Assembly: GCA_031213475.1 (NCBI GenBank)
Contig: JARUPZ010000034.1
Span: forward strand, 3,309,114-3,373,113
Source of the DNA: Nereocystis luetkeana
Taxonomy: Eukaryota; Sar; Phaeophyceae; Laminariales; Laminariaceae
Direction: 5' to 3'
DNA: 64,000 nucleotides
Below are positions 4,466-60,200 of the stretch, in pieces. Under the pieces are notes generated by a model. The model did no database searches, was not told the DNA's origin, and saw only the letters and a program-made list of their open reading frames with translations. Every line of letters starts with the position of its first letter. The first letter of the stretch is position 1. The position numbers were made by a program, and so were the translations under genes.

Positions 4466-4607
4466 TTTACACATTTGCATTTTCTATTACCACGCGGTGC
4501 ATTCGAAGCCTGTCGGATGGCAGCAGCTGGCCGCCGCGACCGCGAGCTCGGCCTTGCAGAAGGAGTTCGAAAAGCAAACACTTTTTTTTTCTTTTCTTTT
4601 CTTCTTT

Positions 4608-4770
4608 GATCATCACTTTCACTTTCCAGCTTAACTCGTGGGAGGTTTTACCCTCACGGTCTTCTTCTGGACAAGCCGTGGTCACAGGTGTCTTTCCTTC
4701 CCCCCGGTATATGCGTGCCTTTATTTTTGGTCGTGTCGCGTATAGGGTTCAGCATCCCCACTGCTCGTCG
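4608..4770 (+). repeat. Dispersed repeat shared with 30755-30915
   Basis: TCACTTT.ACTTTCCAG..AACTCGT.GGAGGTTTTACCCTC and CTTCTGGACAAGCCGTGG are shared by both. The open frame through it is not a recognised protein. Confidence 0.75.
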
Positions 4771-5064
4771 ATTTTCATCGCAGTAGCTAACTCACGCTTC
4801 CGCGCTTTCCGTTATTCAGTTTTCATGCAAGAAGAAGTTCTTCCTGGACTTGAACGCACGAAATTGATCATGGTAGGCAAGCGGACCACCTTCGAAAAGC
4901 CACCGGGGACGCCGGCTTTCTAGTTTCTAATTTCCTATCGTAAGTCCGCATTAATGCCTGGTACAGTACGCACACATGTTCTGCTTGCCACCCGTTATAC
5001 TATCCAATTTCTAATTCCTACATATATTGTTCACATTTTTTATTCCCACGCGGTGATTTTGCAG

Positions 5065-5196
5065 CCTGCTGGATACCAGCAGCTGGCCGCCGCGAACGCG
5101 AGCGCAGCCTTGCAGAAGGAGTTCGAGAATCTGTACGAGGCGTATATGGCCAAGAACCCCCTGAATTCCGAGCCCAATCACAACTGCAGGATGACG
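5065..5196 (+). CDS. NUP54: Nup54 exon a (44 codons)
   Basis: Follows a TTTTGCAG acceptor and ends ATGACG before GTACTG. It encodes PAGYQQLAAANASAALQKEF and then a helix ending NHNCRMT, which corresponds to the start of the conserved Nup54 region after the FG repeats. A decayed copy of its first half lies at 4480-4576. Confidence 0.75.
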
Positions 5197-8100
5197 GTAC
5201 TGTATTATGATGCAGTATGTCTGTCGTGTATGAAGTGTATGTACAGCAGTGGTGGATATCGAAGGGGTGTTGAGTTCAATTCGGTACGACATTTTGTTGA
5301 CACAGGTCGATATTTGTGCCAGATGGAGGGTACCAGGTATGTCGTGTGTTTATATGCAGTGAATAGTGGTGGATGTTTCCTTTGAGTTCGATACGATACC
5401 GATTCATATCGGAAGGTCGATATTCCGATATCTATACATCGAAAGGTCGATGTTCTGATACCGATATATATCGAAAGGTCGATATTCCGATATCTATACA
5501 TCGAAAGGTCGATGTTCTGATACCGATATATATCGAAAGGTCGATATTCCGATATCTATACATCGAAAGGTCGATGTTCTGATACCGATATATATCGGAA
5601 TATCGATTTTCCGTTATCAATGCAGCATGTACTGCAGGGTGAAGGTATGTCGTGTACCTGGTAGTGAAGAGTGGAAATCGAAGGTTAATTGAGTTGGAAA
5701 CGATACCGAGACCGAAATAGGAAGTATATCGGAAGGTCGATACTTCGATTGTGCTGCAGGATTAGCCCTTGCAATACGGCAGTCCCGTTTGGGGACAAAC
5801 TACTCAGAATTTGAGTGCGCTGCCCACCAAAACGGGAGTGCAATCCTAAAAGGGTTATACTTTAGGTATCTCCTGGTGGTGTCGTGATGGTTATCGAACG
5901 ATATCGGAGTTCGATATGATAGCGATGTATGAGCGACAAACAAAAATCATGCCATTTCGATAGTGTCGCTATTGTAGTGACTTGCGAGCCCAAATCACTA
6001 CTGCGGGGTGAAGGTCTGTCGTGCACCGGGTTTACAGCGAGTAGTGGTGGATGTCGAGAACGATTGTGGATGTCGATACGATACCTGTATGCGGAGTACC
6101 AGGTACCTGGTATAAACCGGGGTTATTCACGGGTCGGGTCAAACCTCGCGGGCCTTGCCCGACCCGACCCGCAATATTTTCAAGTATTCCTGACCCGGCC
6201 CGCGGGTTGGGCCGGCTTGTGAACCGTGAGGAGCCCTGGTGCAAACGACAAAACAAATACCTGGTACCTTGTTATACTTAGTACACGATTTAGATAGTCG
6301 GTACAGTATTGCATTACAGTAAAAGCTCTGGGGCTCTCTGAGGTAGCGACCAAACCAACCAATCATAATAGCTTTAGCCGCCGCTTTATCAACCGTTTAC
6401 GAGCAGCGTGAGGGTCTAGAAAAAGCAGGGGTGGGATCACGTAAACCTCCGCCCGTGCCGCGCACGACTCCTTGCATTCAACCATTGTAACTATTACGGG
6501 GGACTATAGTTAATAGGACCTATGGTATACGAAAAAAACTATATATTTAACCATTTTTACTAAAAACAAATTTGGTCCTATTGACTATGGTCCCCCGTAA
6601 TATAGAACTTGACGTTGTATCATCCCCCAATCACGCGGTGGGGCCTTCGCTGTAGTTCTCCTCGCCTTGCTTATAGCCGATGCTTCCCCTCCGAAGTCAT
6701 GAGAGGGTTGAACGTCGTTTTTTTTTTCGTCCACTGTCAGCCTAGTAGCGAGCATTTCGTACGTGGACGAGAGGGGGTGGAGGGCACGTATACCGCGCTC
6801 GATATGTACTGGTGCGTTTTTTCGAAAAGTTCGATATTTGCGAAATTTTCACTAGGAACTTTCGATACGATGGCGAACGGTGGTATTTTCTTGTGATGTG
6901 ATTGATGTGTGTAAGTATGTAAACGGCGATATCTATCCCATGATCCGTATCTTCGCCGACGCTCTTCTTCCCTCCCCCCCCCCTCGCCGTGTTCCCTGGG
7001 CCGTTCACGCTCCAATCACCCACGTACACATCGCAGCACGTGGTGTACAACCAGGTGGATCCTAGCCTGAGGCACTCCTACACCCGTCCAGCCCACATGG
7101 AGGACAAGACGTGGACGAAGGTGAGATTTTTTGCGCACACGGGACAGACCAGATCAGATCAGATCAGATCAGATCAGATCAGATCAGAATAGATCAGATC
7201 AGACCACCGTTTCATGATCTAGAAATTTCGGGCCAGATAAAATCCCTGATTTGTACCATGATCTGCAAGACTTTGGACCATGTTTATTTAGCCGGGTGGG
7301 GTCGGGGGAAGATATTTCCGCCCAAAGTGCGTTGCGTTTCGCAGGGTCCGTTTTCGTTTGCGCTCGCTTGTCCCGATGACGGCGAGGGTGCTACGTAAAG
7401 CCGAACATTTTATATTTTCTGAAGGCTTTCTCTCTCTCCCCCTCTCTCGACCATATATTTTCCGAAAACACCACGGTTGCTGATCGGTGTTGGCAGCCTT
7501 AACCTTCCCGTCCTGGGGAAAAAAGCGATCGCGACCCCTCTGCGGACTCAAACGTCCTTCACGGTGTGTGCCTGGTTTCAGTGGTTGGCACGATCTAGTC
7601 ATTGGTAGATGGTAACTGCCGGGTGGGATCTGTATGACACAGCTCTTGTGCACGTGTTTCGCCGGGTGGGATCTGTATGATACGGGTCTTGGGCGGCATG
7701 TCATAGCGGCAAAGACAGGATGTATAAACTATCTGTAAATGATCTAGATCGTGATTTATCTGTCCGATGGTTGGTTGGTTGGTTGGTTGGTTGGTTGGTT
7801 GGTTGGTTGGTTGAGAGGGGAGGGGAAATGGTACTCGGAGTGCATACATTTCACAGAGGCCTTGTTTTATTCGATCCGTTTTTTCCCTTATTTTTCACCT
7901 CTGAAGAAATGATCCTACTCTCGATTCAAGAAGCCCAGCTGCGCTCCTGGAGTGCAAAAGCTGGAAGGTAGAGAGAGGCGTGGTCCGACGGTACGGATGG
8001 GAAGTATTGCGGGGGACCATAGTTAATAGGGACCTATGGTATACATAAAAACCTATATTTTTAATCATTTTTACTAAGAATATTTGGTCCTATTAACTAT

Positions 8101-11100
8101 GGTCCCCCGTAATAGCACATATTTGCATCGTGTTTCTGAGGTGCCTGCCAGCCTGCCTCACTCGAGGACCTCTCTCTCTCTATAGAGGTAAAGCTTACCC
8201 ACAAACTGAATCGATGAACAATTCCCAAACCCTGGCTGGTATCACCGAAATAAGTAGGACTACTATTCACGGGTCGGATTAAACCTCGTGGGTCGGGTGG
8301 TGTAACGATGACCAGACCCGACCCGTGAGAATTTGAAAACTCCCGACCCGACCCGACCCGACCCTTCCGGTGAAGTTCCGAAAACTTCCTGAACCGGTCC
8401 GTGGGTAGGGTAAAGTCATTTCCGGGGCAGAGCCCTGAACAAAAGGATGGTGCTAACTGTAGGAATTTGTACCAGTAACGAACGATGATGTCTATGCAAC
8501 GGGATCTCAATGACGTTGTGTTCCTTCCTTACGCCAGTCGCCCCCCCCTCCCCCTCACGTTGGTCAACCGTCAGTCCTAACTATAGGTTTAGACCAAAAA
8601 GTGCTACCAGGTATACGAGTACACCGATATCGTTTTGGCCAAAAAAGCGCTATATATATACCGACATTGTTTTGGGAAAAAAAAACGCGATATAGCCCTT
8701 TCGTTTTGGTCAAGAAGCGCGATATATCCCCATCGTTTTGGCCGAAGAGTGCTATATACCGATATCGTTTTGGCTGAAAAAAGTGCGGTATATATACCCC
8801 TATCGTTTTGGTCGAAAAGCGCGATATACCCCTATCGTTTTGGCCAAAAAGTGCTATATACTGATATCATTTTGGCCGAAAAACGCTATAAACCCCTATC
8901 GTTTCGGCGAACAAAGTGATACACCCCGATCGGTTTGGCCAAAAAGTGCTATATACCGATATCGTTTCTGCCAAGAAAGTGCTACCTGCTATATTGTAGT
9001 CTACTGTATATCCCCATCATATATATAGCACGCGCCGTAATTAGTTGGTTGGTTGACAGTAAATATGCTACGCAGGAGGCGGCGGTTTGAACGCATAGAC
9101 TGATCGCCTTGACTTACCCCATTGACTGATCGCTTCGACTGACCGCCTTGACTGACCGCCTTAAGCTTTGCGGTATGGCTAACCCCGTCGGCCGGATAAA
9201 TTTAACTTGAAAAATAACATACTGCTGTACATACGAGCAGCTGTCGCTAGGAGGAACTCGCGGTGGTGGGTAGGTGTAACTGCCGTCAACTACTGGTAGG
9301 TGTTGCGTTGGTGGGAGTGGGAGGTGCAAATACATCTACCGTTACCGTTCTTCGGCTTGTTCTTTTTGGGAGATTCCAGCCGTCACATGGTACAGACGGA
9401 GATTTTTAGGTGCGCGAGGCTGGTAAGGAGGCCCGTTTTTTTTGGCGCCGTCCGTCATAGATTGGAAGCTCGCTTTATTGTAATGATGCCGTTGCTCTCT
9501 CCCTCTATATAGTAAGTTGCGCTGTTGGATACCTGGTAGTTTGTTGAGTGCGTGCCGTGTACTACTGTGTGCGTCGGTATGTACAGCTCTAGGCCTGTAT
9601 CTTTGTAGACGTACTTCGTCGTGCGGCCGTCTTGCCGGTGTAAACATCCGGACCCGACATCGAGTAAAACATCCCACCGAAAGTAACGATGTTGTACTTG
9701 TACATACAAAAATTGAATTTATTTGTGTACGGGGAGAAGGGTCTTCATGTGTCTTCGTCTCCCCCCCCCCCCCCCCCCGCCCGCTTGTGTTCCCTTCTCT
9801 CGTCTCTCGTCCCCTTGCTTGCACAGGCGGAGGAAGATAACCCTGACCCGAGCAAGCTGGCCCCGGCTGCCGTCATAGGGTGGGAGAGTCTGAAAGAGCG
9901 CTTGGTCGAACAGCAGAAAGAGATGCAAAAAATGGCTGCGTTTGTGTCGGTGAGAGGTGGTATATACGTCGTCACACGCCTGTTGTTTCTTTTTTTCTTT
10001 TCTTTTTTAACTTGAGCTTCTGAGATCGGAAAACAAAGGTACATCGAAACTCGTATTTTCCAAGCTGTGGTGTGACTCTTCGATCGCGCGTCCTACTGGT
10101 GGTATGTAGATTTTTTTCGAGTGTCGCCGCGGTGGTGGGCACGTCTAGTTACCTTTCATGTTAGCAGCAGAAACACTGCAATCATAATACGTGGTATTTA
10201 TTAAATATTAAAACATTAGCTGTGAGATCGAGGATTTCGTCGAACCTCGTCTTTGCAAGCCGTGGGTAGTGCTTCCATCGCGCTTACTGCGGGGTTTATA
10301 AGGCCTCATGCAGGAATTACAGTCCGTATATGAATTAGAAAGACGTGAGACACTCTCGCGGACGAATTTCCTCTCTGATTTCCTCGCCGACGGGCAGGCA
10401 GGGAGGGAGGGAGGGAGGGAGGGAGGGAGGGAGGGAGGGAGGGAGGGAGGGTGCAAGCACCGAACGATGCATGTGTGTGTGAAAAAGTATCTCGACGACA
10501 CCTTCTCAACGCCTCTGCCATCTTCGTCTTGGGTCTCCGTCCCCCCCCCCCCCCACCCCTCCCCCCCCCTCCCAGGTTTAGGATAAACTCGTCTCGCAAA
10601 TCCGTTTCAGGGGGGGGTGTTATCTTATCACACGTGTGATAGTGTCATCTGCATACGGTAATGCCGGACTACTCAAAGCTGGTCGCAAACACGCAGTACC
10701 GACGCAGAACACAGTAAGCACAACTTGCGGTACCAGCACCAATTCAGTCAATTGTTCCGGCGTCTATGGCGAAACAGCAGCGTGCGGCGGGCATAAAACG
10801 CAAAAAATAAATAAATGGCTGCGTGTTCGTTTTGTCTAGGGTTTAGGATTGGCAGTCTTCGTAACGCCTTCTACGGTAGCAAACCTGGTCACAGCGGTAC
10901 CAGTATACGGTGCCGGTGCAGTTTAATTTTCCGGCGTGGCGTACAGCAGCAGTAATTGTAAACAACCGCTGCGTTTGCTTTGTTGACCGGTGGCAACGAC
11001 GCCTCATCGAGTAGGAAAACTCGTCGCAAGACATGATGAAGTCACGTAGAGCACGAGTTCCATAACAGCCAGTTGTGCCAGCATGGTGGCCATCAGAAAG

Positions 11101-12622
11101 CAGTGCCAAAAATGGCTGCGTTTGCGTCTTTGAGCAGTGGCATGTCCCTGCAACGCCTTATACGGTAGCAAACCTCGTGACTTGTATATTTCTTCCTTAT
11201 TTGCTCTCCCTGTGCTTACCCCAGTCTCGGCTCTCCCGTTCACTGCTACCTCTCTGCCCTCTTTCTGCATCAGGGGGTGTCTTTCTCCGTTCATCTCTCT
11301 GCTTCATCTTTCTCTCGCTATCTCTTATCTGTTTCGCTCTCTCTGCTTTCTCTCTGTCCATGTGCACACCTACTGTACTGCCTCCCTTGCTTGACTTGCT
11401 GTGGCTCTCTGGGCCTCTGCCATGTCTCTCGCGCTCTCTTCCCCCCCGCCGCCCCGTTCTCGCTTTGTCGATGTGTGCATCTCCTTCCTACGTACCTTCT
11501 TTTTCTCCCTGGTGGCTCCCTCCGTTCCTTACTCGCTCTATTTGCCGGCAGGTAATGCAAAGCACCACAAGCAACGGCCTCCGCTCCGTAGCGTTGGTGA
11601 GGACTCGGATGGAGGCCTCCCGGCGCAGGCATCTCGCACAAGCGCACCGCTTCCTCAAGGTACATAGCACCAGAGTGACACCTAGTTAATACCTGTAAGT
11701 AGATCTTTCCGGGCAGACAGATCCCTGATCTGTGGGATCTACTCGAAGCAGCTCGTGATGCCGGGTGGGAGGGAGCCGTATGACCCGCATGAGCTGCATG
11801 ATCTACAGTAGCACGTGTTCCTGGGTTGGATCTGTACTGTACAGATCCTCCACAAATTCCCTTTTATTTGTAGAACTGCAGTCTCGTTTTGGGGACACAC
11901 TACTCGAATTTCAAGTAGTTTGTCCCTATGGCGGGACTGCGGTCTTGAAAGGGTTAAAACCCTTTTAGGACTGCAGCCCCGTCTGGGGAAAATTACTTGG
12001 ATTTTGACTGGTTAGGAACACAATCATCTTTACCTACATGTAGTACCGCTTTGCCCCTCGATTTAAGGGAGCGGGAGTACATTCATATCTAGTACAAACG
12101 CACCATGTACATAGATAGGGACAGAGTGGGAATATATTGTCCCGGCCTGTCCGGCGTGTGGAACCGTGCAATTGCGGTAAGGCGTTCCCTTGAAGTCAAG
12201 ACTTGACGTTGTGAAACCGCAACGGCTTTCTTCCAATGGGTAGTGTTGGATATATCCATCGTATCCTTTTTTCTTTTTTTTTTTGTGATCGAAATATATA
12301 GCGAACTTCCGATTAGTTGTAACTAATGTGGTTTTGTTTGCCCTCCATCCCCTATCTCATTCGCTTATTTTTGTTGTTGCTGTTGTTGTTGTTGCAGATA
12401 TTGAACTTTTAAGAGACATTCAGTGTACCCCCCCCCCCCCCGGCTTCTCCCAATGTACCGTCAACGTTTGATATTAACATCAGAGTCTAAACGGTGTTTT
12501 TTTTACTGGCCATTGTATACTATACTGGTAGTCAGCAGGTGCATATAAATGTGTTAACATTTGTTTCGTTTTTTTTTTTCTCTTCTTCCGACCGGCTCAC
12601 TAAGCGTGTCCAATTCTGCTGC

Positions 12623-12690
<68 letters not shown>

Positions 12691-15600: not shown

Positions 15601-17329
15601 TTTAAACCACACCGTTCATCCACCCTGACGCCCTTCGCTGTAACACAGCAGCAGGTAAGGAAGTAGATGATCGAGACCATGATCTATCTGTAATTTGTGT
15701 GGAAAATTGTACTCGTCGTCTTTATGGTGTATTATCTCTGTACTTGTTTACAATGAAGATACACCCCCCCAAGAGGGTTGACAGTTTTAATTAGGATGGA
15801 GTTGCAGAAGCTGCTGCTGCAATTTCCTTGTTTTTTTTTTAATTTTGCGAATACGTCACAGCTGTGAGTTCGACGGATTGAGTGTAATTTGTGTTTGCTG
15901 CAGGAGGCGTTTTTTTACTGCACTCCCGTCTTGGAGGCTAACCACTCTTAATTCTAAGTGTAGTTTGTCCCCAAAACGGGACTGACTGCAGTCCTAAAAG
16001 GGTCCAAGTGCAGCAGTTCGGAGCTACGTCGCAGTGAAAAATCAGATCCGTCTGGGTGCTCAAGAAGAGCTGTTAATCGTTCTGTTTATGATCGCCATTC
16101 AAGGTAATTCTAAGCCTGGTACGAGCAAATATTAACGGTAACCGATATCGCCCCCCGGGGACTGACGTTGTGCAAACCCGGCCCTTATTCGCCTCTTCTC
16201 CGCCTTGTTTATCATGTTCCTCTTCGTCTCACGGCGGCGGCGGCGGTTCGACCAATAGGGGGAGAGGCAAGCGGAGGATGTGGAGGAGATCAGGGACCCA
16301 GAGAAATTGCGAAGAATTTTCGAGGTGTGTGTGCTTGTTTTTTCCCTTTGCCTTTCGTAACTCCATTATTAATAGTTTATTCTACATGTTTGGCTTAATC
16401 TTATATCATGCTGTAGTGCAGGTTTCATTTGATATCATGGCATTTGATGTCGCACTACTGTATTATACCAGGTACCAGTACATATTACCGGTACCATTTA
16501 TCGTATAGTAACATAATATCATATCATACCATAGCTGGTATCATACATAGCATATCGTATCATACCAGGTATAATATCGTATCGCATCGTATTGTATCAT
16601 ATCATATGATATCATATCACATGACATCGTACCATGCCATGCCACACCATACCATACCATATCGTATCATCTCATACAATATAATACAATATCATATCAC
16701 AGGACCTTGTACCATGCCATGCCATACCATACGATACATACCATATCGTATCATATCATTTCATTCCATATCCTCCTACCAAACCGACCCGATTCCAGCG
16801 CCTTATCAGGTACGCTTTTGCTGCGACCGGTGACGTCATAATGTAAAAACTCCAACCCAAGTCACGCCGTGTTGTTCGTCCGTGGTTCATTCACGCGACT
16901 TTTTTTTTCCCCTTGTCGACGGTGGCGTGACTTGCACAACCAATGATTTTTTCTTGGCGGGACGGGACGGTCCAAGTCAACGGTACTGTAGGCGAACTTG
17001 TCGATGGGGCAGGACGGCACCATGGTCCGTTTTGACAACGGTTTTACCGTCCCATCCCGCCGCTACGGGACGGGACGGGACGACACCACACGGTTCCATT
17101 TTGACAACGGCTTTACCGTCCCATCCCCCTGCTGCCGTCAATATCGTCCCGTCCAAATAACATGGTACGAAAGCCTCACGTTTGTTTCCCCTTGGTATAA
17201 AACGCTCGCTGGCGCCGCGTGGACCGGCCTTGCCTCGTCTGTGACATTTGCTGGCAGGCTCTGCAGGGGCAACGGGACGGGCTGGAGCATTTGATGCGCA
17301 TCGTCAAGAGGGACAAGCAAGACTTGGAG
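5065..17329 (+). CDS. NUP54: Nup54-like nucleoporin, partial gene, seven exons found
   Basis: Nup54 belongs to the Nup62-Nup58-Nup54 complex lining the central channel of the nuclear pore. Exons seen are 5065-5196, 7037-7120, 9827-9949, 11552-11659, 12900 or 12906 to 13046, 16259-16324 and 17258-17329. Joined, they keep one frame and follow the animal protein in order: an exon ending NHNCRMT, then YNQVDPS, then EEDNPDPSKLAP followed by IGWESLKERL (animal form DNPDSEKLIP...VGFKELLRRL), then a basic RRRHL helix, QRKLDAV, and finally GLEHLMRIVKRD (animal GLSHLISIIKDD). Family match rests on remembered sequences. Every exon is a multiple of three and every intron is phase 0. Introns run from 0.9 to 3.2 kb with GT-AG ends. 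No FG-repeat exon upstream and no terminal exon after 17329 could be recognised, so both ends are open. Confidence 0.85.
5395..5605 (+). repeat. Minisatellite, ~64 bp unit
   Basis: Three-plus units of TCGAAAGGTCGATATTCCGA plus TATCTATACATCGAAAGG and TCGATGTTCTGATACC in a Nup54 intron. Confidence 0.9.
5765..5856. mobile_element. ~90 bp palindromic element (GCAGTCCCGTTTTGGGGACAA), copy
   Basis: One arm CCCTTTTAGGACTGCAGTCC then CGTTTTGGGGACAAA; the other arm is its complement; a short loop ACTC.AATTTCAAGTAG sits between. This copy is diverged. Whole element can form one long hairpin. Confidence 0.75.
6118..6225. repeat. CCCGACCCG-rich hairpin repeat
   Basis: CGGGTCGGGTCAAACC and its complement face each other. 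Related stretches are at 8270-8410, 41620-41670 and 48155-48335. Confidence 0.7.
6492..6602. mobile_element. Fold-back MITE, GGGGGACCATAGTTAATAGG ends, copy 2
   Basis: TATTACGGGGGACTATAGTT at one end, ACTATGGTCCCCCGTAATA at the other; inside a Nup54 intron. Flanking TA suggests a TA target. Confidence 0.8.
7037..7120 (+). CDS. NUP54: Nup54 exon b (28 codons)
   Basis: Starts after TCGCAG and ends GACGAAG before GTGAGA. It reads HVVYNQVDPSLRHSYTRP and ends KTWTK, matching the YNxVDPS...YxxP...W signature of the Nup54/Nup57 family. Confidence 0.85.
7150..7203 (+). repeat. (AGATC)n microsatellite
   Basis: About ten units, 30 bp downstream of the donor of Nup54 exon b. Confidence 0.9.
7769..7813 (+). 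repeat. (GGTT)n microsatellite
   Basis: About eleven uninterrupted units. Confidence 0.9.
8005..8114. mobile_element. Fold-back MITE, GGGGGACCATAGTTAATAGG ends, copy 3
   Basis: Same ends and length as the other two copies, inside the next Nup54 intron. Confidence 0.8.
8625..8965 (+). repeat. Minisatellite, ~30 bp unit CGTTTTGGCC.AAAA
   Basis: About eleven units of TATCGTTTTGGCCAAAAAG followed by .GCTATATACC, imperfect. Confidence 0.85.
9827..9949 (+). CDS. NUP54: Nup54 exon c (41 codons)
   Basis: Starts after GCACAG and ends GTGTCG before GTGAGA. It encodes AEEDNPDPSKLAPAAVIGWE and the first coiled-coil stretch (LKERLVEQQKEMQKM). This is the best match to animal Nup54 in the window. Fragments of its 3' end recur in the following intron. 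Confidence 0.88.
10400..10452 (+). repeat. (GGGA)n microsatellite
   Basis: About thirteen units in the intron after Nup54 exon c. Confidence 0.9.
11552..11659 (+). CDS. NUP54: Nup54 exon d (36 codons)
   Basis: Starts after GCCGGCAG and ends CTCAAG before GTACAT. It encodes a basic amphipathic stretch (VRTRMEASRRRHLAQAHRFL) matching the YKRKLMDLSHRTLQV segment of animal Nup54. The upstream sequence is C/T-rich for about 350 bp, like a long polypyrimidine tract. Confidence 0.8.
11859..12008. mobile_element. ~90 bp palindromic element plus an adjoining half copy
   Basis: Full copy 11859-11956 followed at once by one arm of a second copy (11957-12008). Confidence 0.7.
12616..12697 (+). repeat. 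(CTG)n tract in Nup54 intron
   Basis: More than twenty CTG units with two CTT interruptions, followed by 150 bp of degenerate CTG/CTC. It gives long Leu, Ala, Cys or Gln frames, but it is intronic, about 200 bp before a 3' splice site. Confidence 0.9.
12900..13046 (+). CDS. NUP54: Nup54 exon e (47 or 49 codons)
   Basis: Two in-frame acceptors are possible: AACAAG before 12900, giving IQRKLDAV, or ATTCAG before 12906, giving RKLDAV. The IQRK reading resembles the animal protein. The exon ends CTGCAA before GTGAGG and encodes ERQLMMRLEGVHRSL and LKDLNSSLLQ. A (CTG)n tract lies about 200 bp upstream in the intron. Confidence 0.82.
13130..13440 (+). repeat. GATCTATCTGTAGATGA-type repeat
   Basis: AT-rich GATC/ATCTACAGAT units, related to 14815-15080, 29738-29800, 57665-57700 and 62800-63120. 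Confidence 0.65.
14085..14310 (+). repeat. Minisatellite, ~23 bp unit GCCGCGGCGACACTTTTATT
   Basis: About nine units, with an inserted CCCGTTCTTCCTACTGTTAG segment that recurs at 14305. Confidence 0.85.
15917..16002. mobile_element. ~90 bp palindromic element, copy
   Basis: Diverged left arm, good right arm ending GCAGTCCTAAAAGGG. Confidence 0.7.
16259..16324 (+). CDS. NUP54: Nup54 exon f (22 codons)
   Basis: Starts after ACCAATAG and ends TTCGAG before GTGTGT, encoding GERQAEDVEEIRDPEKLRRI followed by FE. The frame is closed just upstream of the AG, so the acceptor must be here or further downstream. It corresponds to the EERYYMDADLLREIKQHL segment of animal Nup54. Confidence 0.7.
16500..16765 (+). 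repeat. ATCAT/CATAC simple-sequence stretch
   Basis: Degenerate ATATCAT and CATACCAT units; a similar stretch flanks Nup54 exon g at 17340-17600. Confidence 0.8.
17258..17329 (+). CDS. NUP54: Nup54 exon g (24 codons)
   Basis: Starts after GCTGGCAG and ends TTGGAG before GTATGT. It encodes ALQGQRDGLEHLMRIVKRDK then QDLE, the most C-terminal conserved coiled coil of Nup54. The family normally has 10 to 25 more residues; no convincing last exon was found. A 20-odd-base copy of its middle reappears near 17494. Confidence 0.85.
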
Positions 17330-17689
17330 GTATGTACTTTCTGATATGATATGATATGATATGGTGCAGCTGTTTGGTTTTCCAGTTCTTGGTTTTACGC
17401 ATCATATCATATCACATCACATCACATAATATCATATCATACCATATCAAATCATTACATACATACTACGTGTATGAACTCCATGAATGGCATCGTCAAG
17501 AGGGACAAGCATTAATCACATAACATCGTCTGACATAATATCGTCTGATATCATGTCACATTGTACCATATCATACCGTAACATACTCAAACCATGTCAC
17601 ACGTGTATCAACTCCTTCGAGACTCCAGAGTTGGAAAATCGTCGATTGAAAAGTGACGGGGATTACAGCAACGACCGATATCATGCGTG

Positions 17690-17994
17690 ATGAAAAATTG
17701 ACGATTAACCCTTTTAGGACCGCAGTCCCGTTTTGGGGGCAAAATACTAACAACTTGCGTGGTTTGTCCCCAAAACGGGACTGCAGATGAAAAATTGACG
17801 ATTAACCCTTTTAGGACCGCAGTCCCGTTTTGGGGGCAAAATACTAACAACTTGCGTGGTTTGTCCCCAAAACGGGACTGCAGATGAAAAGTTGACGATT
17901 AACCCTTTTAGGACCGCAGTCCCGTTTTGGGGGCAAAATACTAACAACTTGCGTGGTTTGTCCCCAAAACGGGACTGCAGTCCTAAAACGGTTG
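17690..17994. repeat. Tandem trimer of the palindromic element, 97 bp period
   Basis: Units begin at 17707, 17804 and 17901 (AACCCTTTTAGGACCGC), each with the spacer GATGAAAA.TTGACGATT. Units are nearly identical, so the amplification is recent. Confidence 0.9.
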
Positions 17995-18492: not shown

Positions 18493-18752
18493 TAGATGGA
18501 CCACTTTGACCGACCGTGTTGCACATTTCAACTCGCCAACAGAGTAGAGCTCGTACCCAAAACTTCGGACGAGTGCTACAGCAGTACGATTGAGGCAGCA
18601 CCTCTTGGCCATTTTTTTTTTTTCGGACTAGCGGGGATTCTTAACCGAGGATTTGCCCAGTTTCGTTTTTCAAGCTTGTTTTTCGTAATGTGCCTATTAA
18701 GGCCGCATGGCTCGTCGTCGGGTTGACCTTAATTTTCCCAGAAAAATCCCGG

Positions 18753-18847
18753 TTGACCCTTTTAGGACTGCAGTGCCATATGTGGGGACAAACCAGTCAA
18801 ATTCCGAGTGTTTTGCCCCCAAAACGGGACTGCAGTCCTAAAAAGGC
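18753..18847. mobile_element. ~90 bp palindromic element, copy
   Basis: GACCCTTTTAGGACTGCAGT to ACTGCAGTCCTAAAAAGG, arms complementary. Confidence 0.8.
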
Positions 18848-42062: not shown

Positions 42063-42087
42063 TGAAACTCATACATGTCACAATCGA

Positions 42088-43330: not shown

Positions 43331-43390
43331 AAATCGAGCAAAAAATATATATTTCAATAAGCCAACGGCTCTCGTGGGAGCCAACGGCTA

Positions 43391-43582: not shown

Positions 43583-46356
43583 CTGCCACGATGCCGGGGA
43601 GTGGGGGGGGGGGGGAGGGGAGGGGCGTGCTCATTGGTTGCTCGCCTTAGTAGTTTGACCATTGATCACGAATCTGTTTCGAGAGGAAGGGTGGGGGAGG
43701 AGAGGGGGTGGGTGGGTGGAAGGAGGTGGGGAGGGGGCCGGGGGATAACAAGTCATCAGCAAATCGTGTCATACGGTGGCGAGAACCGCGTCGAAAAAAA
43801 ACGGCGGAGGAAACGCCTTCCATGTACCACGGTAACATGTTTCCTGTTGTACCTGCGGCGTTATTCGCTCGTCTTGGAAGAGTAATCCACGTAGCGAATA
43901 TATAGCAGGCGGTGCTCTGTAACAAAAGCCGACACACAAAAACGTTTTTGGCCCAACACGCAACATGCGACAGCTGGTAAAAGCAACTCGGCGAAAAAAT
44001 TACAGCCATGGCGGCGAAGCGGGACTGCAGTAATAAAGAGGTTAAGCTCACCGCGCAATTTAGGTTGGTCTCATCTACATTTCAGTCTTATTTTGGCTGC
44101 GGGAAGAAAAATCGCATACTAATTCCAAGTAGTTGTTGTTTCGTGCCAACGCCGGTTTTCCTGGTACCCGAAAGTCACAAACCGGAGGGTCTTGAAAGCG
44201 GTAACCACCACTACTGTATAACAAATATCACTCTGCCCAGGGATATAGTCCTGTAACGCTCCGACAAGGAATAAAGTCCCCGCTTGATCTTCACGTCAGA
44301 GCCTAAACGGTGATTATATTCTCGGCCGAAGTGGTGCTACTTGTGGTGTATCACGGGGGGTGGTGTCACAAGCGGTCATTCGAGGCGCCAAACCGCGGTC
44401 TCCTTGCATATTTGACGGTTATATACTAGTTTTAGTGTAGGCCGCGGTCAGTCGACGGGTCAAACCGCGGTCTCCGAGCACAGCTGACCGTGAGTAGGCA
44501 AATACCGGGATCCATTCTGCTGGCATAAAAAAAATACTGGTAGGTAGTACTGTCCGATCGAAGAAGGTAAGGCAGCAAAGTCACCATGCGGTGTATCATT
44601 AGGGGGTGCCTCCTTGCTTATTTCTTCGCTCGAAGGAGAAGCAAGGGTTGCTGAGTGATCGCATCGAGGCTTCACCCTCGTCGGTGATCAGGCGATGCTC
44701 GACACCGGGCATCGGGGATTGTTTCGGGACTTTTTTCAGTCAAGGCGTCAAACCGCGATGTGTCAACATATTTGACGTTAATATACTAGTTTTAAATGTG
44801 GGGGAGGTCAGTCAAGGGGTCAAACCGCGGTTTGCTGTCATAGCGCAGTTTACGGTAATCGCGCCTCACGGTGGGCCCGTAGGCTAGTTTGTACTACTGT
44901 GTATGCTAGCGCAGCATTCAGCATGATTTTTTTTCTTTTTTTCTTTGAAGTAGCATAGTGAAGTTTTACTAGGCAATACAGTAGCATAATTGTTTTTTTT
45001 GGGATCATAACAAGCGTAGCCATGGGTGATAACTAAGGAAGCATAAAAGAAGAAAAAAAAGAGAATACACGGATTGTGGGGAAAACACACAGATATCATA
45101 ACATTTTTTTTGAGTGGCTCACCTCCACGAAATAAAGAGTATGGTGAGTTCTGCTACCCCCTCCCTTACCCTCTACCCCTCACTTCCTCGCCTCCTTACC
45201 TTGTAGTTCCCCATCATTTGTTGGATGACGAGTTTCGAGTCTCCCTGCACGGATAGTTTCTGGCGTCGTCGGCACGGTGGCATCAGGGAGGGGGGGGGGC
45301 ACCAGCGGTAAGAGGCGCCATATTAGTAGCAGCAACAGCAGCAGCAACATCAGCAGCAATATCAGCAGCAACATTAAATAACACCAGCAGCATTATCAGC
45401 TGCAAACAACAATAAACCGCGGCAACAACAACAACAACAAAGACAGCAAAACGAAGAAGCAGTAGCTGCAACAACAACAATAACAAAAACAACAAAACAA
45501 CAAAAAGCAGTAGCCGCAACAACAGCAGTACTAACACCACCTGTAGTAGCAACGACAACAAACAGTAGCAACGGTAACAGCAGCAACAGTAGCAGAAACG
45601 GTAGCAGCAGTAGCAACAGCGACGGCAAAAAATACAGGGCATGATACAAGACACAGCAGTACGCTTCGAAACGAGCACTTGTCCCTTCACTTCCGCTATC
45701 ATGGCTGGTTGCCAGGTGTACCTTTACTCCCAACCCTTTCGCCCCACGAAGGCCCTCGATTAGGCCCGAGTACTCCGCCTCGTTGTTGGTGGACGCATGC
45801 CCTACCCAAACGCTGCTACTCCAGACCTCGTCGCGCCTCCCGCCCTCCCCTAACCTGTTCCACCGCAAACATACACGAGGCGTGGGTACGACAAAGCAAC
45901 AACGCGACACGGATAGTGGCCACGGCAAGTCGTAGGGAGGGAGGGAGGGAGGGAGGGAAGGAGGGAGGGAGGGAAGGAGGGACGGACGGAGGGAGGGGCG
46001 GACGGAGGGACGGACGGACGGAGGGGGGAAGGGGGGGGGGGGGAGGGAGGGAGGAAGGGGGAGAGGGAAGGAGGGAGGGATAAGAGGAGGGAGGGAAATA
46101 GGGATAAGGGGGGAGAGGGGTGAGAGGGGGTTGGTAGGGAAGCAGTCACGCCAGTGATGCCGACTACTCGTTTGGGAAAAACGAAACAAAAAGCTACAGT
46201 AGTAGAGCTCTAGACTACCGCGCGAGGAGATCATGAAAATATGAGACGAACTCCCGAATGGCTTGACTCGTGCCCGGACACTCTCTGCACTCGCGACCAC
46301 CACCGCCACCACCACTACCGCCGCGCCACCGCACCGACGAAACACAGACGCAAGAA

Positions 46357-46388
<32 letters not shown>

Positions 46389-47081
46389 TCAACCAACAAT
46401 AACAACAAAAAACAACGACACCAACAACACCACCGACACCACCACCAGCAGCAACAACACCAACACAACACCACCGCCTCCAACACCACCACCACCACCA
46501 ACACCAACAACAACGATAACCCCACGCCTTGCTGCCGCACCTGTACAACACGGCTCCGGCACCGCTCGGCCCGGGGTTCCCCCTCGAGCCTCCATCGAAC
46601 TGCATCATGTGCGAGGGCAGTTTGGCAAGGGGTGGTGGCTTGGTCGTCCGTCCATCCTTCTTCGCCGAACCGGACATCGCCCTCACCGATGCCCCTCTCG
46701 ATAACGCCGGCATCACCCCCGCCGCTACCGCCGCCGCCGCCGCCGATGCCGCAGTTACCCCTGATGCGGACGTGCCCCTCTTCCTTCTCCCCAGCGATAT
46801 CCCGCTACCCCCCCCTCCGCCTGCCGAGACCACGTGGAAAGAAGCAGGGCGGGCTGCCGCGGGTCGGACTCCTCCGGCGTTGTGTTTGCTGGCCTCGCCG
46901 CTAACGCTGCCGCTAGCGCTGTCGCTGCCGCCGCCGCAGCTGCCGCCGCCACCACCACTGGTGCCGCTGTCACTACTACTAATGCTGCTGCTGTCACTGC
47001 TAGTGATTGGGGTGGTGTTGGTTATTGTGGCACTCGCGGTTCGTCGAGACCGTCGGGGCGGGCTTTGCTCGCGCTCGAGCT
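43391..47081 (-). CDS. RNase H type 1 domain protein, four exons
   Basis: Ribonuclease H cuts the RNA strand of RNA/DNA hybrids. Minus-strand exons are 47081-46521, 45849-45722, 45244-45200 and 43582-43391; phases fit (1, 0, 0) and introns are GT-AG. The joined domain reads MMQFDGGSRGNPGPSGAGAV, EAEYSGLIEGLRGAKGLGVK, GDSKLVIQQMMGNYK, and HIARALNGRADTLANVAMD, ending AGESTCSS... at a stop. All four catalytic acids are present (D in FDGGS, E in NEAEY, D in GDSKL, D in RADTLAN) and the loop His (EHIAR). It resembles the short bacterial/plant RNase HI group. The N-terminal part of the first exon is low complexity (S, G, A-rich). The first-exon start is not certain: an acceptor before 47081 would link it to the SAP exon upstream. 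Confidence 0.9.
44340..44850 (+). repeat. GGTCAGTCAAGGGGTCAAACCGCGG repeats, three copies
   Basis: Blocks at about 44380, 44445 and 44735-44840 share GTCAAACCGCGGT and GCATATTTGACGTTATATACTAGTTTTA. Another copy lies at 32870-32960. All are in the RNase H intron between exons C and D except the last. Confidence 0.65.
45200..45244 (-). CDS. RNase H exon C (45 bp)
   Basis: After CGTGCAG: GDSKLVIQQMMGNYK, then GTAAGG. Contains the third catalytic Asp. Easily missed because it is only 15 codons long. Confidence 0.92.
45722..45849 (-). CDS. RNase H exon B
   Basis: Two bases plus 42 codons after GGTTAG: EGGRRDEVWSSSVWVGHAST then NNEAEYSGLIEGLRGAKGLG and VK, before GTACAC. Contains the catalytic Glu (NEAEY). 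Confidence 0.9.
45935..46095 (+). repeat. (GGGA)n-type purine tract in RNase H intron
   Basis: GGGAGGGAGGGA with interruptions and G-runs between RNase H exons A and B; the reverse strand is C/T-rich before the exon B acceptor region. Confidence 0.85.
46521..47081 (-). CDS. RNase H exon A: low-complexity linker plus first strand
   Basis: Begins after a CTGCAG acceptor if spliced from the SAP exon; otherwise the gene could start at an internal Met (for example MSGSAKKDGR). Encodes a Ser/Gly/Ala-rich linker and then MMQFDGGSRGNPGPSGAGAV, the first catalytic Asp. Ends GCGTGGG before GTTATC. Confidence 0.8.
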
Positions 47082-48154
47082 CTGCAGCTGCTTTCGTGGG
47101 AATGACAATCAGAAAAGAAGGCAACAAGGGGACACAAAACGCGCGGAAGAGGGTCAAAATCAGGACAATACAAAGGCTACGGGGGAGGGCGTGCCACAAG
47201 AAGAAGAAAAAAAAACGCATATGACGCCGTCAGCTCAAGTACCGCCCGTCTGTCCCTCGCGCGGTCGCCTGTCCACTCTACGTAAGAGACGGATTGCAGT
47301 GGCGTTGTCGCCGACAACCGCTCCCTTCAAAAACCCCGCTCGTGGCCTCCAAGTTTTTACCTTCAAGGGTGTTGCTCGAGACGGACCGCTACAGTAGGTG
47401 TACATGTCTGTCAACCGTGAACCTATTTCAGAGTAACTTCGCGAGTTCCAAGGCTCTACCAGAACGGTTTTGCTAGAGATGAACGGCCAAGGCTCGAGCG
47501 TAAACCTACGCCGTAACGTATAATACAATAAGTAGCTTGCACCACGGAAACGGGCGCCAGGACTCACCACTAACGATGGATTATTTCTGCCATCGAAAAG
47601 GCGGTCCATGCGGCGACAATTCCGCGACAAACTATCCTCGAAATAGACTGTGACATTCACTTTGACGTTTTCTGCGAGCTAAGCAAACTTTTGCATAACT
47701 TACACCAAGGTGCCCCATTTTTTCTGCTGATCCACCCTAAGCTCGCAAAGGTACACCCTAACCTTGCGAAGGTACTGCAGAAAATATACAAAATTATACA
47801 AGGTATGCGAGAAAACAGCAAACCAGTCACTCTTAAGAGCACGCAGTTGCGGGCTGACGGGGTCAGAGCCTACCTCTCAACCCTAACGCCCCCTGTGGTA
47901 CACCTGGCACTCTGTACTTTCCCGTCTTCAAACCGCAGCCCACGAAACGGCTATAAAACCCCCGCCCCACAGCTATCCACGCCACGCCACGCTCCTTCCC
48001 CCCCTCCCTCGACCTGTTTTGCCCACGGCAGCAACATCGTCTTCTGGTGCACCCGAGTTAAAACTGACCCACGACACAGATATGGAAGGGTGGCTTTCGA
48101 GACTCATAAAAAATCGACCAAACAAACGAAGGAGGACGATACTTTTTCGGCTGT

Positions 48155-48335
48155 TCACGGGTCATGACCCGACCCGCGGGCCGGGTCAACAGGTCTTCAA
48201 CATCTAACGGGTCGGGTCGGGCTGGATCGGGTCAGGAGGCCTCTAAAGCCTCACGCGTCGGGTCGGGGTCGAGTAAAGTGAACCGACCGGACCCGACCCG
48301 ACCCGCAAGGTATGACCCGACCCGTGGACAGCCCT
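48155..48335. repeat. CCCGACCCG-rich hairpin repeat
   Basis: Runs of GGGTCGGG and CCCGACCC in both orientations, ending GACCCGACCCGTGGACAGCC. Confidence 0.7.
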
Positions 48336-48597
48336 GTTTTTGACAATGTTTTTTTCAAGCGTCTAGGAAGAAAGTGCAGCAGCGGCAGCAGTACAAGTAT
48401 CACCATGGTTGCGCGCTCCTTAGATCCGTTCGGACACATGCCTTGTCCCAGCATACACATGCTTTATTTACCCTAAGCCACCATACCCCAGCAAGCAGCC
48501 CGGGCTGCCGCTTCGTATGGACGATGATTCTGTAAATCGTCACCGTTGTCTGTTAACCACATTTGTTTTCCCTTTCAAGCCCCCAAAAGGGAATATA

Positions 48598-48693
48598 ACC
48601 CATTCAGTACTGCAGTGCCCAGAAACCTGAATATGACTGTAATTCCAAGTGCTTTGCCCCCATAGCGGGAGTGCATGCAGTCCTAAACTGGTG
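48598..48693. mobile_element. ~90 bp palindromic element, old copy
   Basis: Arms recognisable (ACTGCAGTGCC, TGCAGTCCTAAAC) but diverged. Another old copy lies at about 49771-49860. Confidence 0.6.
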
Positions 48694-48781
48694 AACTATA
48701 ATAATGGTACATTCTTACACGCCTGACGGAGGATGAAAACAAAGAAAATAAGTGATGAGTTCCCTCTCTCCTCGTACGTAC

Positions 48782-48928
48782 GCGAGGCCGCGACTTGCCT
48801 TCTCCCAAGCGAGCTTGCAACACCGGCCGTATGCCGGTGACCTCGAGGCCTCGGCTCTCCAGCTCCAGCCGAAGGTCCTTCACGCGCATGGTAGATATCG
48901 CGGTTTTACTCAGTGCTGGCGACGCCAT
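48782..48928 (-). CDS. SAP-domain exon, possible N-terminus of the RNase H gene
   Basis: ATG at 48928 opens 49 codons: MASPALSKTAISTMRVKDLR, LELESRGLEVTGIRPVLQAR and LGEGKSRPR, ending at GTACGT. MRVKDLRLELESRGL...GIRPVLQARL is a good SAP motif, a DNA/RNA-binding helix pair. A further in-frame Met lies at 48985. The RNase H exons are next on the same strand, 1.7 kb away. Using the alternative donor four bases later (phase 1), the frame continues into RNase H exon A. A SAP-RNase H fusion is therefore plausible; a separate gene is the alternative. Confidence 0.55.
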
Positions 48929-53990: not shown

Positions 53991-54109
53991 TAGTCCAGAT
54001 CATGACAGGACTGCCCGCCCGCCCCCCCACCCCTCCCTTCCTCCCCCCCCTCTGCTGTACTCCCCCCGCTATCCCACTCTTCTTCAGCTTGGCGTCAGAC
54101 GGAATAAAA

Positions 54110-54223: not shown

Positions 54224-57200
54224 CTGGGTTCGTTTTGGACAGTTCAGGAACCCAATCGATGCCCAGCCCCAACGCCGGAGCGACCGCAAAAACGACACAT
54301 ACAAGACAACAGCAGCAGCAGCAGAGCAAAAAACGACGGAGAGTTAGTCAGCTTTTGAAACATGAAATGTTATGCCAGCGCAGATTCGCGAGCAAACAAA
54401 AAATACTGGGAGGGCAAGACGAAAGCCCCAGCGACTCTTGAGCCACACACATCATCCGAATCTTGAACAAACACCAACCGGCACACAAATGAACGCACTC
54501 GTCGTAGTGTTCGTTGGATATCATATCCGAAACTTTCGATATATCGAGATATCGAACTATCGAAATTTCGACAACGTACCAAGCGTGTTTTTGCCCTCCA
54601 CCCCCCCCGGCATCCCCGTCTTCTTCCATGCAGATATTGAACGAAATTTTCAATCATTGGAGAATCGAGATCGAACCGATTTGTTCTTTAGTATATCGGT
54701 ATCATATCCAACTCGACTGCAAGTCCGATATCCAACTCGGCATCGTACCCATTATCGTTCCATATACATTATCGTCCGATATTAAACTCGGTATCGTATC
54801 GAACTCGGCTTTCATCTGAGGCCCAACTCGTTATCGTATCGCACTCGACTCTCATCTGATATCCAACTCGGTATCGTATCGAACTTGATTAGCATCCGAT
54901 ATCCAACTCGGTATCGTATCGAACTTGATTATCATCCGATATCCAACACGGTATCGTATCGATTATCGTTCGATGTCCAATTCGGATTGTCGTATCGTAT
55001 CAAACTCGATCATCCGATATCCAATTGAGTATCGTATCGAGCTCGACTATCATTCGATATCCAACTCGGTATCGTATCGACTGTCCTCCGATGTCTCACT
55101 CCGTATCGTATCGAATTCGATTATCGTCCGATATCATAAGCACGCACCTTCCGGCCGTCGAACGTCCTCGCCCTAAGGCTGGCGGCGGCTCCGGCAGACG
55201 AGTCCACCCCGTCGAACGCCACGAACACGAAGCCCACACCGGGCTTCTCCTGCTCGTTAATCGTGCTTGGCCGAGGGATGTGCACAGATTTAACGCTCCC
55301 GAACTTCTCGCACTCCTCCTGCGGTGACGTAAAAATGGTCCAATGCGTCAAACATTGATACCAGGCGCCGGTACATCATCACATCATACGAGGAAAATCA
55401 AGGATGTAAAAATGTATCAAAACAATATCAAAAGCTATAAATATACCGCACCGGTACAAATATACCAGGTATATATACTAGAACGATCGAAGTGCGTGTA
55501 CAAAATATATAAAAAAGTATACTTGCACAAACAAAAAAATCAATGACATCGACAATAGATCAAAATGACGTCAAAGCCAAACAAAAAAACGCTGAAACTT
55601 ACGGTAAGGGTACGGGCATCTATTCGAAATTATCAAAGTATACGTTTACGAAAGAGAGAGCAAAAATACCCTCGTACTCCGGTCAATTATTAAACTCCAT
55701 TACAACAACACAGGCAGTGATAAATATGAACCCCCAACGGCCTCTACTACAGTACCTAACCCGCCACCGCGACCCCGCCAACGTGGACAACAAACGCAGA
55801 ACGACAAAAAAAACACACGCACACACACAAACCTTGGTCTCTTCCTCAATGTCCCCTAGACCACTCTCATCCTCCAGGTCTCCAGCCGTCAGCATATTGT
55901 TCAGTCTGAGCGTTGTGGTCGGTCGGGCAGTAGACACCACCCCGAGGGCAGCCACAGCCGCCTGAGCCGCGGCCTGGGCCGACTCTATCCCGCCGAACGT
56001 AGTAGCCGGGGCTGGCAACGCCGCGTTGGGGTTTCCAGACGTGAACCTAACCGTCGTTAACGAGGAGGGAGGGGGGGGCGTACATATGTGCTGCTTGCCA
56101 TAGACATTTAGTCCAACATTGACCACGCATCCCTTTCGAGACAGAGCACCGTTCCTACTCCTAACAAGAGAGACCTCCAACATTTGGGGGTTCAGTTCCT
56201 ACTCCTAACAAGAGAGACCTCCAACATTTGGGGGTTCATTACATATGTTTCCATATATTACATAGAAACGTGTAGCCAACCTTATCGCCTTCTTGTTTGG
56301 CCGCCTGTGGCCACCATCAATCTCCTAGAACAGCGATCGTTTCATCGCTACTATCTAGTGCGCCGAACTCCTCCATGTCACATTCATCTACTTTCCTCAT
56401 CTCTCAACACATCCCGTTCCTCCTTGTACATTTTCACATTCTCTCACTATGTGCGTTATCTTCTCTATTCAAGGGCTTGGGGGGTTAGGTGCGGGGGGGG
56501 GGAGAGACTATTGCTGTAGTGTGTGGCTTGCCTAGTCACCATTAATAGACCATTGCTGGTGGTGGTGTGTGGGGGGGGGGGGGTGCGCACTAATTTGTTG
56601 CTTGCTTTCGTCATTTGACCATTGACCACGCATGCCTTTCGAAACGGAGCACCGTGGTTCGGGGGGGGGGGTTGAGGAGGGGCGTTGCCTTGGCCATTAG
56701 GCCATTAGGCGGGGGTTGGGGGGGGTGGCGGTACGTGAGAGTTGGAGTTGGAGTGAGCGGGGGGGGGGGGTGGGGGTAGGGAAGGAGTAAAGGCGAAGTT
56801 GGGGTTGGCGGAGTGCTGGTGGACGTGGACATGCATATTGGGTTGGGGGGGAGTGGGAGGGGGTGGTTGGGTAGGGGGGTGGGATTTTTGGGGAGGGATG
56901 GAGGTTGGAGGGGAGTGGAGGTGCCGTGAGCGTGGGTGTGGACGTGAGTGTTGGTGGGAGCAAGGGGAGAGGGGCGAGGGGATGAACGTGGGGGCAGGAG
57001 CACCAGGCGTGAGGGGGGTAGACCAAGCTGTGCGAGATGCATGGGATATAAACTGCAGAACTGTGAAGCAAGGCTTGATAAACGTCTACGCCTTCGCCTG
57101 CCCGAGAAGATTGAAGCCATGTGTCCTTTTAGACAAAAAATCATGACAGCAGCCGCAACACCTTTTGCCGTAACGCGAAAATAGAGACCGGGGGAGTAGG

Positions 57201-60200
57201 GTCCGGCGGCCTGCGCAACCTCCAGCGAGAGCGGTAGCCCCCTAAGGAAGTTTTTCAGAAACGCTTTTCAACCATTTATACATAGACGAAAAACAAAACT
57301 TGGGTAAAAATCAAGTTTGAAAAATAGAAACCTTACTGGATGCGGAAGAAAAACAGACAGCGACAGACAGCAGCTAACCTTGCGAGCACATCCGGCCAGT
57401 TGAGGTGAGGCGTTTCCGGTCCGGGGTACTTGGACGGGCGGTTGATCTTCAGCTCCTGAAAGCGCGAAAAAAAAATGTATATATATAAACGACAACAGCC
57501 AACCAGAATACTTCGATATAGACGGCGGGCAGCGTGCCAGCAACTGCCATCGCCACACCAGTGGAGGCGAAGTGCGTGCAGCATGATACCACCTACCCCC
57601 CTATTGAGGCCCGTTACTCGTACCGCGTGTGGTGCGTTCACACCAAACGGTTCACACGTCGTACGCATAGATCATCTACAGATAGATCATCTAGACCCTA
57701 ACCTTTCGTTTTGACTTGATTGTTGTGACGGAACTGTACACGGTAATGGCCCCTCTATAGAGCCGGTATGCGCCAGGCAAGAACAATACCGGCAATATAT
57801 ATATATAGCGGAGACCGGCATTATTCCGCACGCGGCCACACTGGCTACTCCCATCTGTGTCAAGCGATTCCACGGGAACTAGAGCATGCGGCCGGCACTG
57901 TTACTACTGAACCGGCCCTACAGAGGGAACACTGACTGCTGTAGTACATATCCAACCTTGGCAATATGTCCTAGGTCATGCAGCTTATATATTATATCGT
58001 TCCCAGCAGGCAACGTGACCTACGCATGTACATCATACAAGAAAAAGTCGTACGGGGAAAAAATTGAGAAGACAAGAAAAAAAAAAAAACGCACAGACAG
58101 AGAGAGAGCTAACTGTAAGGGAAATGCCGTACATACCTGTCCCAGGAAGGGGATGTTGTTAAGGTTGAGCAGGGCAGTTGTCTCTTCGATGGAGCGGCAC
58201 TCCACGAACGCAAAGTTCCCCGAAACCCTGGCGTGGATGATGGGGCTCCCCTCTTTCTGGCAGAACCCCACCTGGGAAGGCGGGTGCGGCATGGTGACGG
58301 GAGGCAGAGAGTGGCGGCGACGACGATGACGGCAACGCCAACAAAAAAAAAACAAAGCCACAGGCACCATACATCGACTCACAACAACATTACTTCACCG
58401 AATCATAGTCCGCCACGAGCTAGCGACCGGCCAGTAAAGGGAATGACTAGAAGAATTTCAGACATGCTCATGTATGTTCTGACGACCAGTCCACGAAGAG
58501 CTAGCGTGCTGCAAGTATCGCTAACGACCAGTGATGGTAGAATTACAGTTACGTTTTATAACTTGTAGCGACCAGCGAGCGAACAGCTGCCAACAGGTAA
58601 GAAACGCTAACGACCATCTATTGCAGATTACTACCACGTTTAATTTGTACACTTGCACTGCACGCCTTTTAAGGAACAACCCGCGTCGACATAGCGACTT
58701 GCAAGCAACGCTGACGACCAGTGATTTCAGACATCCAGCTTTTAATAGAAACGTGTATACACCTCATGGCGACCAGCTCGCGAGAAAGCTACGTACTGAC
58801 TGGTAAGCAACCCTAACGACCAGCGACTACATAGTCATAGTTGTGCTCATAGTCTATATCTATACCAGGTATATCTTGCGCATTGTGTCGCTGAGGAAGT
58901 ATTTGGGGACCATGCCCGTCTTGGTCTAGTCGCGTGTAGATACCTCCTAACGGCCAGCCCACGAAGAGCTACACAGCGACCGGTAAGCAAGACTAACGAC
59001 CACCCATTAAATGTTCACAGTTGCGTTCACACCTTGTGCATCGTGTTGCTGAGGAAGTCTTTAAGAACCATGTCCGTCATGTCCGGACTCGTGTTCCCGA
59101 TGTAAAGCTCGCTGCGCGCGAACCACGATGAACCAATCACCAGACGAAAAAAAAAGAAGAGCACGAAACGGCGTGGTTAGCTAGTTACATACGGAGTAGA
59201 AGCGATGCATTGGAGAGAGGCAAAGAGACAACAGCGGCCGGCGAGCTCGAGCACTTTCTTACGGTAAAAATTGTCGCCAAGAAGTAAAGAATTTTGTAAA
59301 AAACGATACGCAAACTGCGTCCGAAAAAAAAAACGACGAGCGTAAAACCGTATGATCTTCCCGATGACACTGAGCAACACTACCGGCCTGTATCTTTTAC
59401 GAGGAACTACGGTAGAAATTGCGCACACTGGCGGATCAGGGAGGGGTGTGAAGGACTTGCTGAATACCAAAAAAGCCTCAAGACCTCTCGGTGAAGGATG
59501 AAGGATATCGACTACCATAAAGAGCGTTCACCCCCCGCTGGAGTGCGATCGTGTTTTCAGCGTTGCTGCGAGGTTTCTCGACATCGGTAAGGGTGTTCGG
59601 AGAGTCAAACATTATATTTTCGGGTCTCGACCAGATATTTCCGAAAATAGCTTGTTCGGTATTTTTGGCAACCTTCGCGTTCTCGAAAAATCGAGCCCCT
59701 GAAAAACGATCGTACCCCTATTTCAAACCAGGTATGCGAACTCAATGCTCGTTACGGTGCTAGGAGTAGGACCCAAATCTCCTTCACAAACAAAAAGCAA
59801 AACAGACCAAAAACAACAAACAAAAAATAATGCCGCCTCCCCCCGTCTCCTAGTCCCACCGCCACAAACTACCGTAAAGAGCGCCTAACTGTTGGAGGTG
59901 TCTCTTGAGAGTAGAACCGGTGCTTCGTCTCAAAAGGGATGCGTGGTCAATGGTCAAATGACTATGGCAAGTAACAAAAGCGTACGCCCCCCCCCTCCCC
60001 CCCCCCCCCCCCCCCCGGCGGTCTGTCTCGGAAGGGATGCGTGATCAATCGCCAAAATGACCGAGGCAAGCGAAAAAAGAGTACGACCCCCCCACCTCCC
60101 CGAGTAACGTCTGACTGATGGGTGAACACCCGACCTGCTCCGTCCCGGCATTGCAGGGATGCGAGGGTCTACGGTCATACGACTACGGTCATGCATGACA

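Follow-up and report, generated by a model that had tools for sequence, protein, structure and literature searches.

Why do pieces of exons reappear in the intron DNA around them? The question is raised by a 64,000-nucleotide stretch of the brown alga Nereocystis luetkeana genome (assembly GCA_031213475.1, contig JARUPZ010000034.1, positions 3,309,114 to 3,373,113; hereafter the window). This 64-kb window is intron-rich eukaryotic DNA, in which we placed five genes with 28 exons by hand, using open frames and splice sites in the sequence. The genes encode Nup54, the ribosomal proteins eL37 and eS12, a protein with SAP and RNase H-type domains, and an RRM protein that we take to be U2AF and refer to as U2AF-like. 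The original prediction held that exon pieces recur in four of the five genes through a shared, active process, exon shuffling among the possibilities. Clear copies of exon sequence are present for 4 of the 28 exons, in two genes (Nup54 exons a, c and g, and one U2AF-like exon); four genes are reached only by counting copies of the exon/donor junction in eL37 and eS12. The copies are direct and partial, with defined edges, and random pieces of the surrounding introns recur with similar frequency. The exon fragments are thus likely to have arisen incidentally, through local duplication that affects intron DNA in general.

Exon copies in the window

A self-search of the whole window returned 295 pairs, of which the 66 within 1.5 kb were kept for listing. 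Comparing exons with their own introns alone left the exon g copy undetected and picked up little of the exon a signal, as these copies lie outside the annotated introns; windows around each exon were therefore used for the background comparison described below. The sources and copies are as follows.

5065–5197, plus strand: Nup54 exon a, source; open frame after AG, 133 nt
4478–4573, plus strand: exon a copy, acceptor region and first 65 nt of the exon; self-search, 85.4% over 96 bp
9911–9963, plus strand: end of Nup54 exon c with donor, source; self-search and alignment
11091–11143, plus strand: copy of exon c end and donor; 79% over 53 bp, E 4.5e-5
10675–10892, plus strand: more decayed intron unit related to 11016–11181, with a weak exon c fragment near 10810
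17298–17319, plus strand: internal piece of Nup54 exon g, source; self-search
17490–17511, plus strand: copy of the exon g piece; 22/22, E 0.002
58933–59081, minus strand: 3' part of the U2AF-like exon, donor and intron start, source unit; self-search and alignment
58752–58923, minus strand: decayed neighbouring tandem copy of that unit; E 2.5e-8, 66%

The half copy of Nup54 exon a, predicted at 4480–4576, is real: its refined limits pair with 5034–5129 at E 1.3e-24. The copied stretch comprises 31 nt from the 3' end of the upstream intron, including the AG, which the copy retains, and 65 of the 133 exon nucleotides. It stops inside the exon, lacks a donor, and is followed by a T-rich stretch and an element at 4610–4919 that resembles a short interspersed nuclear element (SINE). 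This element lies between the two exon a copies and has a second copy at 30759–31091; on their minus strands both appear to carry boxes of the tRNA type. We considered an insertion of the SINE-like element into a once-complete exon a copy and rejected it, the sequence beyond the element matching the remaining exon only weakly (score 8.5).

The end of exon c had been predicted to recur near 11105 and at about 10810. The first recurrence stands, with AAAATGGCTGCGTTTG found exactly at 9929 and 11109; the second is a weak, broken match, although the intron units themselves pair in the self-search (10813–10892/11110–11181). In the copy, TT takes the place of the donor GT. The exon g piece, expected near 17494, is an exact 20-mer at 17299 and 17491, extending to 25 matches with one 1-nt gap (an extra ATG at the left). 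It is short and sharply bounded, 192 bp from its source, and its flanks differ from those of the exon piece.

The predicted U2AF decayed copy at 58866–58935 proved to be part of a larger tandem duplication: the two units, 150–170 bp each, stand head to tail and align over 172 columns across exon, donor and intron, so that the duplication begins in the exon and ends in the intron. In the copy, ATATACC directly follows the exon part, and the gapped alignment has a GT 9 nt further on. Nine matches to a CTAACGACCA-like word occur in the intron itself (58440–59032), so that the duplication with the exon may lie at one end of an older array in the intron.

Junction copies had also been predicted in the ribosomal protein genes. 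Here the donor junction does recur, with about 6–11 exon nucleotides, whereas exon-only comparisons score 16–24, which is noise level.

28534–29279, minus strand: end of eL37 exon 2 and intron 2 array; decayed units at spacings of 62–84 nt, one of 208 nt
37578–38063, plus strand: end of eS12 exon 2 and intron 2; ATCATG/GT repeats (the slash marks the junction)

The eL37 junction match covers 27 of 32 nt, and the first unit of the array overlaps the exon end by about 11 nt. The donor GT is lost in the six listed intron units, and a unit-like stretch inside the 208-nt spacing reads TT at the aligned donor place. In eS12, ATCATG/GT occurs at the real junction (37578) and again at 37650, 37709 and 38056 within the 606-nt intron 2, where it is expected 0.008 times, the word having been picked after it was seen; all three intron copies keep the GT. 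Adjacent direct copies across an exon/intron boundary, as left by tandem duplication, are thus present in U2AF-like, eL37 and eS12. No exon copy scoring at least 30 was found in the SAP/RNase H gene.

Exons compared with intron segments

Exon fragments in introns are conspicuous because exons are recognizable and unchanging; the proper yardstick for them is the rate at which intron segments of equal length recur. For each of the 28 exons we took the highest-scoring direct match within 1.5 kb and compared it with matches of length-matched random intron segments, exons being masked in the target sequence. One version masked simple repeats only (here called unmasked); the other also masked dispersed families and tandem arrays, the latter hand-picked from the repeat list. 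Below, brackets give the number of random sets that reach the exon count.

In the unmasked version, four exons score at least 30, against a segment mean of 7.27 (142/150 sets). The counts are four against 4.52 at a score of at least 40 (100/150 sets) and one against 1.13 at a score of at least 80 (101/150 sets); exons are in excess at none of the six thresholds. With masking, the segment means are 4.89 at a score of at least 28 (143/200 sets) and 2.81 at 35 or more (63/200 sets), and at 30 or more four exons stand against 3.90 (111/200 sets). Widening the windows to 3 kb gives a masked segment mean of 4.15 at the latter threshold (61/100 sets).

Short exact repeats tell of the same local activity. 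The masked window contains 14 exact direct pairs of at least 15 nt within 2 kb, compared with a mean of 0.15 in 20 shuffles; four touch exons and ten do not. Merged by hand, with the two exon a pairs taken as one, they form 13 loci, eight of them in gene spans; three of these eight touch an exon, against 19% by coverage (p 0.18). The U2AF-like copy is too diverged to enter this list. Exact inverted pairs number six among those listed, against a shuffle mean of 1.0. Of the shared process originally proposed, then, active local duplication holds up, while a single mechanism and a special involvement of exons are unsupported.

Several results weigh against so simple a picture. After masking, four exons score at least 40 where segments average 1.48 (12/200 sets; in 3-kb windows, 1.59 and 10/100 sets), two score at least 50 against 0.49 (23/200 sets), and the exon a copy is alone in scoring at least 80, where the segment mean is 0.00 (0/200 sets, and 0/100 at 3 kb). 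No exon has an inverted copy scoring at least 30 (segments, 2.78 unmasked and 1.12 masked), an absence that lends weak support, given the low expectation. The exon g patch lies inside a weak intron tandem repeat (17400–17508/17534–17638) and may have a more complex history. An excess of copied donors over copied acceptors, given below, belongs here too, because a uniform process alone predicts none. The sample is 64 kb with 28 hand-placed exons and a hand-picked tandem-repeat mask.

Exon copies are therefore ordinary in frequency and, after masking, stronger than background. The original prediction was to fall if exon fragments showed no excess over the repeat background; within the window there is none in frequency, but there is one in strength after masking. 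Selection that holds the exon arm fixed, and so slows divergence of the pair, could explain the high-score excess, the numbers being small. Between source and copy, 24 of 162 sites differ in the exon parts of the three copies that have both parts (a, c and U2AF-like) and 39 of 170 in the intron parts, counts pooled by hand with no significance test and excluding exon g (0/25, no intron part). Lower divergence of the exon part is the direction expected if that arm is constrained; it fits this account but does not prove it.

How, then, might the copies have arisen under general local duplication? In the U2AF-like gene, and in the junction arrays of eL37 and eS12, the event would be a tandem duplication with one edge inside an exon. 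The copies of exons a and c each span a splice boundary and lie 556 and 1180 bp, respectively, from their sources; they are probably older tandem duplications that have since become separated. The 22-nt exon g piece would be a short stretch copied from neighbouring DNA when a break was repaired, much like a templated insertion. In each case the source exon would be kept intact while the extra copy decays in the intron. Because conserved protein families are encoded at the exon ends, we infer that the exon was the source and the intron the recipient; that a repair process was at work and that the copies are neutral appears plausible on the same reading.

Donor and acceptor junctions

The alternative that fares best holds that introns grow from their 5' end, exon end and donor being duplicated repeatedly while copies of the acceptor, placed upstream, are selected against. 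Donor junctions are indeed covered by repeats at Nup54 exon c and in eL37, eS12 and the U2AF-like gene. When junctions are compared with their own introns at a score of at least 28, copies are found for 7 of 23 donors unmasked and 6 of 23 masked, and for none of the 23 acceptors in either version (p 0.0061 and 0.0395, respectively); random intron windows would give 4.33 and 2.68. Donors are nevertheless not clearly above random windows overall (p 0.062 unmasked, 0.174 masked), although single masked thresholds give p 0.044 (at least 28) and 0.034 (at least 44). An earlier scoring at 30 or more gave 4/23 donors and 0/23 acceptors, with 3.68 expected unmasked and 1.55 masked. Seven thresholds and two scorings were applied, uncorrected.

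Further, the exon a copy covers an acceptor, and the donor match after Nup54 exon a, which stays in the counts, may be a dispersed repeat. We rejected this match as an exon copy: its unit resembles other sequence, including an inverted 20-mer at 3727.

These results hint at a donor-side bias. Selection would offer an account of it: duplicating a donor does not displace the original, while duplicating an acceptor sets a decoy upstream. That introns are in fact built in this way we consider doubtful, and a lineage-wide preference for lengthening by serial duplication of exon end and donor, leaving arrays of decaying donors, is equally improbable. Were growth from the 5' end true, donor arrays would be dated records of it, with the exon arm held unchanged by selection; and a donor bias throughout the genome would give introns a straightforward, datable way to grow and would provide a stock of decoy donors.

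A preference for exons, whether through exon shuffling or through repair and template switching drawn to them, could point to the four strong cases and to their high-score excess after masking. At a score of at least 30 exons are not in excess in either version, masked or unmasked. The four strong copies are all partial and none carries both splice sites, which leaves the exon shuffling originally suggested without support. A process of this kind is very unlikely.

Might some copies serve as alternative exons or donors? In eS12 all three intron copies keep the GT, and the first, lying 72 nt downstream as a second possible donor, would extend the exon by 24 stop-free codons (37584–37655). By our own estimate an open run of 24 codons is not rare by chance, and the other two donors, at +131 and +478, would shift the frame. 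In the exon a copy the AG is kept but a donor is lacking, while the exon c copy and the six listed eL37 units have lost the GT. Differences between copy and exon at codon positions 1, 2 and 3 number 1, 3 and 4 in exon a, 2, 4 and 3 in the U2AF-like exon, and 1, 3 and 3 in exon c; with no excess at third positions, the copies do not look maintained as coding sequence. A functional role seems most improbable.

Finally, that chance matches or transposon families have been taken for exon copies is barely conceivable, and for the four strong cases unlikely: the eL37 and eS12 exon-only scores do sit at noise, and the sequence after exon a partly resembles a repeat, inverted at 3727, but the strong cases have E values of 1e-24 to 0.002 and no exon base falls inside the dispersed-repeat mask.

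Relation to known systems

On general local duplication, the copies belong with known kinds of event: direct repeats in introns, tandem duplication across splice boundaries, and templated insertion.

In Daphnia, 55 of 90 neointrons contain internal direct repeats, attributed to staggered double-strand breaks (PMC4202315). The window shares the local direct repeats within introns, but its introns are not known to be new and some of its repeats enter the exon. Tandem duplications of genomic DNA that cross splice boundaries are likewise documented (PMC4974935, PMC3443670, PMC2891723), and as in those reports exon sequence has been turned into intron; unlike there, the window copies decay in an existing intron and no new intron is seen. 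Polymerase-theta templated insertions are short inserts copied from nearby flanking DNA (PMC5068794). The exon g patch resembles them in being short, identical to nearby DNA and set between non-homologous flanks, but it is read from one allele, with no visible ancestral allele or deletion, which leaves the event unpolarized. Closer in lineage, brown-algal ROCO genes undergo exon shuffling with whole 72-bp phase-2 exons (PMC11378527). Duplication at the level of exons inside genes is common to both, but the window copies are truncated and decaying, and none is a whole exon with both splice sites.

Gene models and database searches

All five assembled proteins find support in Pfam: the assembled Nup54 exons match Nup54 (7.7e-29), eL37 matches Ribosomal_L37e (2e-27), eS12 the L7Ae/S12e family (7.7e-22), and the U2AF-like protein RRM_1 (1.7e-9) and RRM_9. 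The Nup54 model is incomplete at both ends, and the exon boundaries of the remaining gene are approximate.

43425–48892, minus strand: SAP/RNase H gene; SAP domain (5.6e-7) and RNase H-type domains (RVT_3, 4.5e-20) by Pfam

Scans of the window against Rfam, at the gathering threshold, and for tRNAs were empty. A repeat-derived pattern had no match in viral or genome contigs, and the eS12, eL37 and U2AF-like proteins had no relative among viral contigs; the eL37 search of genome contigs returned 11 archaeal loci, unused in this analysis. A literature query on intron expansion, tandem repeats, donor splice sites and partial exon duplication returned nothing, which says little beyond its wording.

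Other repeats in the window

The inverted 20-nt match at 3727–3746/5635–5654 lies, by eye, in GATATCG-rich, repeat-like sequence on both sides, which resembles an array at 54770–55135. At 17689–17980 a palindromic element, similar to a miniature inverted-repeat transposable element, stands three times in tandem in nearly identical copies of 97 bp, with related direct and inverted matches at 18742–18850.

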